NCBI RefSeq assembly: GCF_024297145.1
Contig: NZ_JANCTC010000003.1
Span: 62,001-126,000, forward strand
Length of the DNA stretch: 64,000 bases
Origin: Mesorhizobium sp. LMG 17147
GTDB lineage: Bacteria; Pseudomonadota; Alphaproteobacteria; Rhizobiales; Rhizobiaceae
Direction: 5' to 3'
The position numbers were made by a program, and so were the translations under genes. Of the stretch, positions 43,586 to 48,227 are shown piece after piece. The notes under the pieces are model-generated. The model worked only from the letters and a program-made list of their open reading frames with translations, was not told the DNA's origin and searched no databases. Position 1 is the first letter of the stretch, and each line of letters begins with the position of its first letter.

Positions 43586-45115
43586 ATGAGCAACGAACTT
43601 TTGTCTCCCTCCGAAATGGCCGAGGCCGACCGGCTGGCGATTGCCGCCGGTCCATTCGACGGTATTGGCCTGATGCGCAATGCCGGCGCCGCGGTTGCCG
43701 CCGTAGTGCTCAAGCGCTACCCGGCGGCGACACGCGTCCACGTGCTTTGCGGCCCCGGTAACAATGGCGGCGACGGCTATGTCGTGGCCCGCATCCTTCG
43801 GGAGAGCGCCGTCGATGTCTCTGTGTGGGCGTCCGGATCGCCCAAAGGCGGCCGTGATGCGGCACTCGCTGCCTCGGAATGCCCGGTTGAAGCTCGGCCG
43901 CTGTCGGATTTCGTTGCCGAGGTGGGCTCCGTCGTGGTTGACGCGCTCTATGGGGCGGGGCTGTCCAAGCCGCTGTCCGGCGACGCCGCCAAGGTGATCG
44001 ACATTGCGGCCGAATTGAACTTGCCGGTTGTGGCGGTCGACCTGCCGTCGGGCGTTTCAGGCGAGAGCGGCAATGTGTTACGAAAGGCCTTCCGGGCCCG
44101 GACCACGGTGACCTTCGCGCGAAAAAAGCCAGGCCATCTGCTGTTGCCGGGGCGCGAGCTGTGCGGCGACATCGAGCTCGCCGATATCGGCATAGACAAC
44201 AGCATCGTTGCGCAGCTTCAACCGCGAACATTCGAGAACATTCCGGCGCTCTGGCTTGACCGCCTTCCGGTTCCGGCGGTCGACGCCCATAAATACAAGC
44301 GCGGCCATGTTGGCGTCTTTTCCGGCGGACCGTCGGCGACGGGTGCTGCGCGGCTGTCGGCGCTTGCCGCGGCCCGGAGCGGGGCAGGGGCCGTCACCTT
44401 GCTGTCGCCGGCGAACGCCATGCAGGTGAACGCGGCGCATCTGACCTCGGTCATGCTGCACAAGATAGACACTATCGCGGATGTGGACGAATTCGTCGGC
44501 AGCCGCCGCCCATCGGCCTTCGTGCTTGGCCCGGGATTTGGCATCGGGGAGAAAACGCGCGATTTTGCCCTGGTCGTACTCGGCAACGCCCATGGGCAGG
44601 GCAGCGGGATCGACGGGCTGGTGCTCGACGCCGACGGCATCACCTCGTTTCGCGACGCGCCGGATGCCCTGTTCGAAGCCGCCCGTCGATCGAAAACGCC
44701 GGCTCTGGTGATGACGCCGCATGAGGGCGAGTTCGCCAAGCTTTTTCCCGATGTCGCCGGGCACCACGATTTGTCCAAGCTCGCCAAAGCCCGCGCCGCC
44801 GCTAAGCGTGCCAGTGCTATCCTCGTCTACAAGGGCGCCGACACAGTGATCGCGGCCCCCAATGGCCGGGCAGCGATCAATAGCAATGGTGCCTCATGGC
44901 TGGCTACCGCCGGTTCGGGCGATGTGCTGTCGGGCATCATCGCCGGGTTGCTGGCTCAGGGCATGCCAGCCTTCGAAGCGGCCTGTGCTGCAGTCTGGAT
45001 CCATGCCGAGACCGGCAGCCGTTTCGGACCGGGGCTGATCGCCGAGGACCTGCCGCTGGCGCTGGTGCCGGTGCTGCGCGAGCTCGTTGAAAGCCGCGGG
45101 ATGGCTGCCGAATGA
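43586..45115 (+). CDS. nnrD: Bifunctional NAD(P)HX epimerase / ADP-dependent NAD(P)HX dehydratase
   Basis: Repairs hydrated NAD(P)H; 509 residues, a fusion of two enzymes. The N-terminal epimerase domain (about 1-215, YjeF_N) has VLCGPGNNGGDGYVVARIL. The C-terminal ribokinase-like dehydratase (about 225-505) has HKYKRGHVGVFSGGPSATGA, MTPHEGEFAKLFPD and the catalytic GSGDVLSGIIAGLLAQGMPA. It is divergent from glnB and overlaps the next gene by 4 nt. Family fusions of this kind are common in proteobacteria, so the link to glnB is probably only positional. Confidence 0.95.
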   Translation: MSNELLSPSEMAEADRLAIAAGPFDGIGLMRNAGAAVAAVVLKRYPAATRVHVLCGPGNNGGDGYVVARILRESAVDVSVWASGSPKGGRDAALAASECPVEARPLSDFVAEVGSVVVDALYGAGLSKPLSGDAAKVIDIAAELNLPVVAVDLPSGVSGESGNVLRKAFRARTTVTFARKKPGHLLLPGRELCGDIELADIGIDNSIVAQLQPRTFENIPALWLDRLPVPAVDAHKYKRGHVGVFSGGPSATGAARLSALAAARSGAGAVTLLSPANAMQVNAAHLTSVMLHKIDTIADVDEFVGSRRPSAFVLGPGFGIGEKTRDFALVVLGNAHGQGSGIDGLVLDADGITSFRDAPDALFEAARRSKTPALVMTPHEGEFAKLFPDVAGHHDLSKLAKARAAAKRASAILVYKGADTVIAAPNGRAAINSNGASWLATAGSGDVLSGIIAGLLAQGMPAFEAACAAVWIHAETGSRFGPGLIAEDLPLALVPVLRELVESRGMAAE

Positions 45116-47115
45116 ACCGCCTGACTGCGCTGCTCGTTGCGATCATTAGTGCCATGTCCATGGTACAGGCCGCGAACGCCGAAACTCCGCTAACCATCGT
45201 CGACGACCCGGCCATTCTCGCCGAGCTTGACAGCAAGGGCTATGGTTTCGCCGGCATTTTCGGCGTCGATGGCAAGGGCGATTTGAAGACTCTCTACGAC
45301 AAGGCGCCGGCCTATCATGCGATCGTCGAAACGATTGCAAGCGACGTCGCAGCATTGCGGGCCGAGATGAAGGCCGGCGGCCGGCCGCTTTACGAGGTGA
45401 CCGACGGCAATGTCGGCCGTGTCATGGACATGCGCTGGCTGAGGACCGATGCCGCGCGCTTCCGTCTCGTCGGCATAGTCAACCGGCTCGATCGGCGCGA
45501 CTTCGCCGCGCTGCAAGGCGACACGAGTTGCGGCGAAGTGCGCTTTATCTATCGCCTCGCCTACAGCTTCAAGAAGAACGGCAAGGTTTTGGCCTCGCGC
45601 CTGCCGTTCAATTTCAGTGCCATCTACAATGTCGCGCCGGATGCCGATGGCGGTTGTGTCGGCGTCGCCGGACGCTGGGCGCCACAACTCGACGAGAGCG
45701 TCGATGCCGGCTGGCTGCTCGGCGGGCCGCTGGAAAGAGCGGCACTCACCTTCAAGCAGCTCGAGCTCAATGCGCAAGTGGTCCGCTTCCCCTCCGGCCA
45801 GGAGACCGAATTCGGCGGACAGGCCGCCTATCTCATGCGCATTTTCGGCATCGACGGCGGGGCTGTCAGTGAAAGACCGCTGGAAAACACGCCCGACACG
45901 GCACGTCTCGCCGACGACGCTGCGCTGAAAGCAAGACTTGCCGACTATGTCCGCACCAATGTCGCGGCAATCGACTCCGGCGTCTACCAAATCCCCGATA
46001 AATTCTTGGCAAAGAAGGTAGTCTCATGGTCGACTTTCGGCAGCGCAAGGCAGGCCAACCACCCGTTCACGCCACTGTTCCGGCCCGCGGATTTCGCCGG
46101 GCTCGATTATTCCAAGCGGAAGCTGGTGCGCACGCCAGAAGCATTGGTCGAGCGGCTGGACAATGGCGCCTGCCAGGGCTGCCATCAGGCGGGTTCGACC
46201 GCCGGGTTCCACTTTATCGGCCTGGATGACAAGACGACCTCGCCGCTCAACCGCATCGAGGTCGGTATCTCACCGCATCTCCACGCCGACATCCCGCGCC
46301 GCGTCGCCTGGCTGCAGGCGACTGCGAGGGGTAAGGAACCGAACCGCTTCCGCCCGCTGTCCTTCGCGCCGCCGGCGACATGGAACGATGCCGGCGAAAT
46401 TGCCTATTCGCCGGCCGAAATGGCGATGCCCTGCTTCATGCCAGAAGATGCAGCCCGCTTCGGCGCGACTTGGCAATGCGGCGGCGGCACCGTCTGCACG
46501 CCGCTAGCGACCGCGTCCGGCGTGCGCACCAAGCTGGCGCAATGTCTGTTGCCCAAGGACAGCGAAAACATATTCTCCGGCCATCCGTGCCTGACCGGCT
46601 CGATCACCAGCAACCCGGCGCAACCTTTCAATGACCGCTATATCATCACCGGCCAGTTCGCGGCGTTCGCGCCAGGCATTTCGCGTACCGGCTACACCTG
46701 CCGACCGCCGAAGATCGGCGTGCCGGCGGGTATCGCCTATCGCGGCTGCGACGATCGGGATCGCAGCTTTGCCGCCTTCAAACCGGGCAAGCCGATGCCG
46801 AACGAGATTTGCGGATTGGTCGGCGGCAAAAAATTCGACACCTGCGTGGCGACCAATAATTTCGACCAGTGCCTGGGCGGCGCTGTCAATCGCGGTAATC
46901 GTCCCGCCTGCTCTACCGACCATTTCTGTCGCGAGGATTACATGTGCCAGTCGCTGCCGCCCGATACGCCGGGCATCGGCAAGGTGAAAGGCATCGGCTT
47001 CTGCTCGCCGACCTATTTCATCTTCCAGATGCGCATCGACAATCACGCCACGCCGTGGTCGGGCGCTGTCAGCGCGACGATGGGAGCCGGGTTCGGAGCG
47101 GCGGAAGCGGAATAG
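45112..47115 (+). CDS. Exported Cys-rich protein with a CxxCH motif, function unknown
   Basis: A 667-residue protein I do not recognise. A signal peptide (residues 1-23, ending VQAANA) indicates export. Cys354-Cys357-His358 (GACQGCHQAG) fits a c-type haem attachment motif, with later methionines that could be axial ligands. There are 18 cysteines: 140 and 182 in the N-terminal half, the CxxCH pair, and 14 between 441 and 631, suggesting a disulfide-bonded periplasmic C-terminal module. An N-terminal region near 90-160 (DMRWLRTDAARFRLVGIVNR) is well structured. Its ATG overlaps the nnrD stop (ATGA), so the two are co-translated. Confidence 0.75.
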   Translation: MNRLTALLVAIISAMSMVQAANAETPLTIVDDPAILAELDSKGYGFAGIFGVDGKGDLKTLYDKAPAYHAIVETIASDVAALRAEMKAGGRPLYEVTDGNVGRVMDMRWLRTDAARFRLVGIVNRLDRRDFAALQGDTSCGEVRFIYRLAYSFKKNGKVLASRLPFNFSAIYNVAPDADGGCVGVAGRWAPQLDESVDAGWLLGGPLERAALTFKQLELNAQVVRFPSGQETEFGGQAAYLMRIFGIDGGAVSERPLENTPDTARLADDAALKARLADYVRTNVAAIDSGVYQIPDKFLAKKVVSWSTFGSARQANHPFTPLFRPADFAGLDYSKRKLVRTPEALVERLDNGACQGCHQAGSTAGFHFIGLDDKTTSPLNRIEVGISPHLHADIPRRVAWLQATARGKEPNRFRPLSFAPPATWNDAGEIAYSPAEMAMPCFMPEDAARFGATWQCGGGTVCTPLATASGVRTKLAQCLLPKDSENIFSGHPCLTGSITSNPAQPFNDRYIITGQFAAFAPGISRTGYTCRPPKIGVPAGIAYRGCDDRDRSFAAFKPGKPMPNEICGLVGGKKFDTCVATNNFDQCLGGAVNRGNRPACSTDHFCREDYMCQSLPPDTPGIGKVKGIGFCSPTYFIFQMRIDNHATPWSGAVSATMGAGFGAAEAE

Positions 47116-47158: not shown

Positions 47159-48227
47159 CTATCGATCGAGGTCGTCGGCGATGTTCGATGTCCATTCACC
47201 GTCGAAGTGCCGGACGCGTTCGGCGACGATCGTATCGCTCAGCAGGCTCGACAAGGCGGAAACCAGAATTGGTTCTATCTTTGGAACCAAGCTAAATCCA
47301 AGAGCAATCAGACGTTCGGACCAGGGCGGATGGTCCGAGCTTTCGTTATCGGGCGCGTCCCACGCTTTTTGCGCATACTCCTGCAGGATGGGAAGTCTCG
47401 ACAAGTGAACTGCGCCGCGAGGATCCTTTCGAGTGGTGGACGAGGCGGCGTCATGGCGCCAAGCAGTTCACGCCGGATCGGACTGTAGACCTGATCATCG
47501 AAAAACGCACTGGCAGCACCGATCAGTAGCAGGGCGCGGGCCGCTTCATATGCGTCGCCGGACATCGCTGCATGGCGATCGCGTCAATTTCCGCCCGCCG
47601 CGACAACCGTATTTCTTCGCGCTCCAGCGTGCGCGACAGCGGACCAAGCAACCAGTAGAACAGGCTGCCCGAAACGGTTTTTCCCGGAGGAGCGAAGTCG
47701 AAGATTAGATCGAAGCTTTTTTCGAGTTCGGCCAGGTTGAGGCCGCCGTTTGTGTCCTTGTTTCTCAGATGTGCGTTCTCATGGACCAAGATCGCGGCAA
47801 AAGCCTTTTGGTCGGTCACTGCGAGCAGAGGAAGGCCGATGGTGAGAATCGCCCTACGGCCAAGCAGCCCCAGAAACGGCCGCTCTTCACCGATACTGGC
47901 GTTGAGATCGGGGCTCAGCACGATGGTCGTCCGGCTGGCGCGGTGTTTTCCGGCAATACTCTCCCAGATGACCCATAATTTCGGGGCTGATTCCCGAGCG
48001 ATCCCCTCCACCTTGCTGGGTCGAAAACCGGCGAACAATGTCCCGATCAACAGAACCATGCCCAGCATCGCAGCTGGGATCGCAACAACGCCAGCCGCGA
48101 TGACGGCGAGCGAATGCCGGTCGAGAAACCAGAACCATAAGACTATTGGGCAGAACAGCGGCAGAGCGAAAAGCAGGACGGCAAACCTGCCGAAGCGCGT
48201 TCCCATGTAGAGGATCAGGCGCGACAT
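47159..48227 (-). pseudogene. M48-type zinc metallopeptidase, broken by two frameshifts
   Basis: The 5' part (from 48227) encodes two to three N-terminal hydrophobic segments and the zinc motif HENAHLRN, then SRRAEIDAIAM. Reading then has to move -1 near 47560-47572 to continue as SGDAYEAARALLLIGAASAF, and -1 again near 47405-47412 to continue as SRLPILQEYAQKAWDAPDNE and on to a stop at 47159. Each segment continues the previous one in a way that fits M48 peptidases (a third zinc Glu in the RRAEIDA block), so this was one gene of about 350 codons. It lies 7 nt downstream of pccB in the same direction. Sequencing error at both sites is an alternative. Confidence 0.75.

Follow-up and report, generated by a model that had tools for sequence, protein, structure and literature searches.

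A conserved, unnamed exported, probable haem-c protein with a cysteine-rich tail in Mesorhizobium, and its possible likeness to cytochromes P460 and c'-beta

We analyzed a stretch of 64,000 nucleotides from Mesorhizobium sp. LMG 17147 (contig NZ_JANCTC010000003.1, positions 62,001 to 126,000 of the forward strand), hereafter called the window. One gene in the window encodes a secreted protein of 667 residues, in which a single covalently attached haem and a disulfide-rich tail are very probable. The features of the locus are as follows, in window coordinates.

45112..47115, +, coding sequence of the putative exported mono-haem-c cysteine-rich protein, 667 amino acids (open reading frame (ORF) list, sequence)
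45112..45180, +, predicted signal peptide, residues 1–23, with an AxA-type cleavage site (by eye; N-terminal helix 2–22 in the model)
45187..46386, +, core domain, residues 26–425 (alignment and model; mean predicted local distance difference test score 85.8, predicted template modeling score 0.88)
45415..45876, +, β-strand-rich part of the core, residues 102–255 (model)
45529..45531, +, C140, invariant core cysteine (136/136 rows), with C182 as a possible disulfide partner
45655..45657, +, C182, invariant core cysteine (136/136 rows)
46171..46185, +, CQGCH haem-c attachment motif, residues 354–358 (C, C, and H in 136/136 rows)
46204..46212, +, GFH, residues 365–367, invariant shortly after the haem motif (136/136 rows)
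46432..46545, +, first four-cysteine module, C441-C456-C462-C478 (all four invariant in a 25-row alignment)
46789..47061, +, C-terminal cysteine-rich domain of the long forms, residues 560–650 (seven cysteines and D-x-H invariant in 15/15 rows)
43586..45115, +, bifunctional NAD(P)HX epimerase/dehydratase gene (nnr), with YjeF_N and NAD(P)H-hydrate dehydratase domains (Pfam)
45112..45115, +, four-base ATGA overlap of the haem-motif gene start with the nnr stop (sequence; similar in relatives)

The protein contains 18 cysteines, at 140, 182, 354, 357, and 14 positions across 441–631, and exactly one CxxCH. An earlier reading of the window (the original prediction) had given 667 residues, one c-type haem motif, and 14 cysteines in the last 230 residues, and the ORF and the cysteine positions agree with it. 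The N-terminus, MNRLTALLVAIISAMSMVQAANA|ETP, shows the hydrophobic stretch followed by an AxA-type site expected from the signal peptide in that prediction, called here by eye only, without a signal-peptide program. The ratio of nonsynonymous to synonymous substitution rates (dN/dS) against seven homologues is 0.14–0.24, so the ORF at 45112..47115 is a true gene that purifying selection maintains.

Since any CxxCH arises in 119 of 20,000 residue shuffles of the protein, the motif alone is modest evidence. Its conservation is the deciding point. The motif is invariant in all 136 near-full-length aligned rows, and this, together with the dN/dS values, indicates that it is genuine and under selection. 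The original prediction had named beforehand the loss of CxxCH among homologues as one of two results that should overturn it, and no such loss is found. The rows consist of the query and 135 of the 153 profile-matching ORFs, which passed a coverage filter; the 18 removed include fragments, interrupted copies, and two plasmid members (L117 and L118). Many loci represent one gene fetched twice, and the distinct rows from residue 26 onward number 102. The positions that never vary are C354, C357, H358, Q359, G365, F366, H367, C140, and C182. Between the haem cysteines, the first residue is variable, while alignments A1 and A3 have Gly as the second, with Val only in L117. CxxCH occurs once in each near-full-length row listed and never twice; short fragments and one unrelated match have none. 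We consider it highly probable that the protein binds haem c.

The cysteine-rich tail is less uniform. In the wider set of 136 rows, the cysteines of the first module are kept in 115 (C441), 114 (C456), 136 (C462), and 94 (C478), and the module is incomplete in many rows, chiefly Variovorax-like forms that lack most of it. Short forms of about 510 residues stop after this module, their sole tail module, and most have six non-haem cysteines, that is, the core pair and the module matching 441–478. The C-terminal domain of the long forms closes with G-x-C-[SI]-P-x-Y-F-x-F-Q-x-[RK]-x-D-x-H and matches nothing in Pfam (15 rows) or the PDB. A search with the tail alone gave matches in 4 of 299 genomes, each in the window's genus, so no other architecture was seen for it. 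The combination of haem and cysteine-rich tail noted in the original prediction therefore holds for the haem motif, and for the tail where it is present, but not for the full tail across the family, to which, judging from these sequences, it is not essential.

That prediction could name no family, and the searches agree. The query matches nothing in Pfam (E 10) or NCBIfam, and Pfam gave nothing for 25 members of alignment A1 or five further members (E 1). Pfam, NCBIfam, PADLOC, and PHROGs yielded no usable match to the query or to the relatives submitted; NF005813, touched by 2 of 25 rows (best E 0.073), and phrog_37203, touched by the query over 22 residues (E 0.0053), were taken as chance. 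A single-protein search of the PDB gave 4dou (E 0.048) and 6al9 (E 1.8), and the family profile found no chain there. The predicted structure has no match among viral structures at E ≤ 0.001. No title among the top-ranked ones of one literature collection describes this family. The profile and structure searches proposed at the outset thus matched no characterized family.

The fold of the core should be noted, since the possible chemistry depends on it. In the core model, five long β-strands precede CxxCH. A second-look structural comparison with 998 chains placed two c-haem proteins of one fold, cytochrome P460 and cytochrome c'-beta, at the top; each is aligned over more than four-fifths of its length, and the alignments end similarly far past CxxCH, this distance being extrapolated. 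The Z scores are low, however, with no Foldseek match at E ≤ 0.001, and a search for a signal shared with P460 profiles found none, so that profile–profile comparison lends no support; these results count against the resemblance. The haem part may thus resemble a known group of nitrogen-oxide-handling cytochromes, through a weak link, and a P460/c'-beta-like fold of the modeled core is possible, though we hold it with some reserve.

Cytochrome P460 (PF16694; N. europaea and M. capsulatus), the best match, likewise has one CxxCH behind five long strands, and a single conserved CxxCH, a trait of the P460/c'-beta superfamily, is present in every row here. Its solved chains have 144–196 residues, whereas this family has a 400-residue core and a tail, and its haem is cross-linked to a Lys, whereas no core Lys is invariant or nearly so here, judging from alignments only. 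PF16694 is matched neither by the query (E 10) nor by the 25 A1 members and five more (E 1). Cytochrome c'-beta (M. capsulatus and T. thermophilus), the second-best match, has the P460 fold without the Lys cross-link, but the matched chain is small (135 residues) and lacks a tail of this kind, and sequence search with the query profile found no PDB member of it. Peroxidase-like activity has been reported for an N. europaea c'-beta member with an Arg cap (PMC11928373). Class I cytochromes c share the helix that the model places directly before CxxCH, but they have a Pfam profile and an axial Met after CxxCH, neither of which is found here (no core Met is invariant). MauG and bacterial cytochrome c peroxidase have two haem-c motifs, not one. 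The window's genome also encodes a separate true cytochrome P460 (G000:C63:224517-224888, E 4.4e-37), its sole PF16694 locus.

The reading that we prefer, at a little short of an even chance, is a stand-alone exported protein that holds c-haem in a P460/c'-beta-like core of about 400 residues, carries a disulfide tail, and performs small-ligand chemistry. The Ccm system would attach one haem to CxxCH in the periplasm, with H358 as the putative proximal ligand, and the remaining cysteines would be oxidized in pairs to cross-link the C-terminal tail. The haem site would be laid out as in the P460/c'-beta fold, with a polar distal face formed by invariant strand residues (candidates are R125, E142, N220, and Y240), where a small ligand (nitric oxide, hydroxylamine, or peroxide) would be bound or turned over, rather than plain electron transfer taking place. 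The P460 cross-link appears to be absent, since no lysine is invariant, and this would make small-ligand binding or turnover the likeliest chemistry; the polar strand residues would also favor it over electron transfer, should the layout indeed be P460-like. Taken by itself, the small-ligand chemistry is doubtful. The most far-reaching version is unlikely: a new periplasmic haem-enzyme family of root and soil bacteria and plasmids, with a greatly enlarged P460/c'-beta-like domain, no lysine cross-link, a polar distal pocket, and a fused new disulfide-rich module, turning over reactive species of nitrogen or oxygen on the outer side of the cell membrane. The P460/c'-beta fold is described as unique to two protein families (2025 review, PMC11928373, section 5); if the link is true, legume symbionts and other soil bacteria would add to it a third branch, large and built of several modules, and extracellular handling of nitric oxide and peroxide may matter to them. 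For a nameless yet selected haem protein, the family is now defined, its invariant residues are listed, and its chemistry can be tested.

It is also quite conceivable, if short of probable, that the protein is an exported c-haem electron carrier or redox sensor of a new fold, and that the likeness to P460 and c'-beta is a chance β-sheet resemblance. The low Z scores and the negative Foldseek and profile–profile results are consistent with this, and a second haem ligand could be H367 (invariant) or H389 (128/136). Against it stand the identity of the best two of the 998 chains, c-haem proteins of one fold with such extensive alignments, and their nearly equal extrapolated ends past CxxCH. A CxxCH without haem, serving as a disulfide or metal site in a structural disulfide-rich envelope protein, is improbable. 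The protein is otherwise full of cysteines, whose parity is even whether or not the motif is counted; the non-haem cysteines are even in number in 100 of the 102 distinct rows, except in L056 (interrupted) and L025 (open frame). Two of three plasmid members also lie directly upstream of a peptidoglycan-binding-domain gene (L117:10052-11326, below the Pfam cut-off, and L118:10088-11386). However, C..CH is strict in all rows while the first residue between is free to vary, and CcmF is found in the window's genome.

The neighbors might instead suggest a partner in NAD(P)HX repair or nitrogen regulation, which we regard as most improbable. Mesorhizobium loci have nnr, glnB, and glnA as neighbors in a constant glnA-glnB / nnr-gene order, with a few-base overlap or abutment with nnr in most loci where this was computed, and translational coupling of the two genes is plausible from the sequence. 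Contrarily, the haem-motif protein is exported, whereas the nnr and glnB products are cytoplasmic, and 16 of the genus's 37 genomes have no match to the family. Adjacency to nnr is seen only among the Mesorhizobium orthologues and closely related metagenome sequences; in the flanking DNA retrieved for other members, short in some cases, no nnr was found. Since members elsewhere adjoin other genes, the pairing carries little functional information, and nnr is probably unrelated in function to the haem-motif gene. Of the co-translation with the repair gene in the original prediction, the overlap stands but a functional link does not.

Those other neighbors are an iron-dependent-repressor-type regulator and a zinc peptidase beside a Mesorhizobium paralogue, LemA-like and TPM-like genes (named by eye) beside members in f27, another family of the order and by our guess Bradyrhizobium, and, in the Variovorax-like genome, genes resembling those for acetolactate synthase (ilvB in matching records) and, by eye, penicillin-binding proteins. 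Because the neighbors vary between lineages, the haem-motif protein most likely works alone.

The family is real, conserved, unnamed, and exported, narrow in the sampled genomes, and dispensable. Scanning GTDB genome contigs yielded 69 loci, mainly in Mesorhizobium with some metagenome-assembled Rhizobiaceae and Hyphomicrobiales. A single frame is open from residue ≤30 to ≥640 in 59 of them; L048 and L062 are cut by contig ends. Interrupted copies, which may reflect gene loss or sequencing error, occur in eight (L002, L047, L049, L050, L056, L063, L069, and L070). The search covered 37 genomes from the window's genus: 18, the window's own among them, have a full-length orthologue, one a two-piece copy, and two only the paralogue (32–33% identity). 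A relative is present in 1 of 24 other genomes of the order, and genuine relatives in 11 of 299 genomes of a further search, from which the G210 match (E 3.9e-4) was dropped because it has two cysteines and no CxxCH and reads as a membrane protein. Among 398 Pseudomonadota genomes, the family profile matched in 15. Of 101 genomes related to one distant match, 26 have members; their label, Variovorax-like, stands for a single DNA match (84.6%) to a Variovorax megaplasmid. Class-wide samples gave 1 of 274 and 1 of 289 genomes, each being the centre genome itself. The absences are soft, because these searches cover a sample of the phylum and score only a few first-look candidates (e.g., 3 of 22 in the own genome). 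Ten pattern matches in IMG/VR include no relative, and phage records have no match to L112, the sole short form searched there. The phyletic distribution called for at the outset is thus that of a narrow family of soil and root bacteria.

A tree built from 40 core rows resolves the orthologues and the paralogue of Mesorhizobium, the Variovorax-like members, the f27 short forms, and the plasmid forms as separate groups, though several deep joins link long branches and may be false. The plasmid members, longer and divergent, come from Pararhizobium gei, Rhizobium lusitanum, and a Mesorhizobium, and two of the three plasmids were typed conjugative. L117 also carries GH25-lysozyme and glucosaminidase genes, and L116 an N-acetylmuramidase-domain gene. 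In the window, an ORF at 47526-48227 (−), M48-peptidase-like by eye and without a Pfam match at E 0.01, sits between the haem-motif gene and a carboxylase gene, and only some related loci have its counterpart. On P. gei plasmid p2, one annotated gene separates the family member from a Hedgehog amino-terminal signaling (HH_signal) gene (L116:5412-6647 (−), Pfam E 3.4e-50); PMC6027127 describes bacterial members of the Hedgehog/DD-peptidase family.
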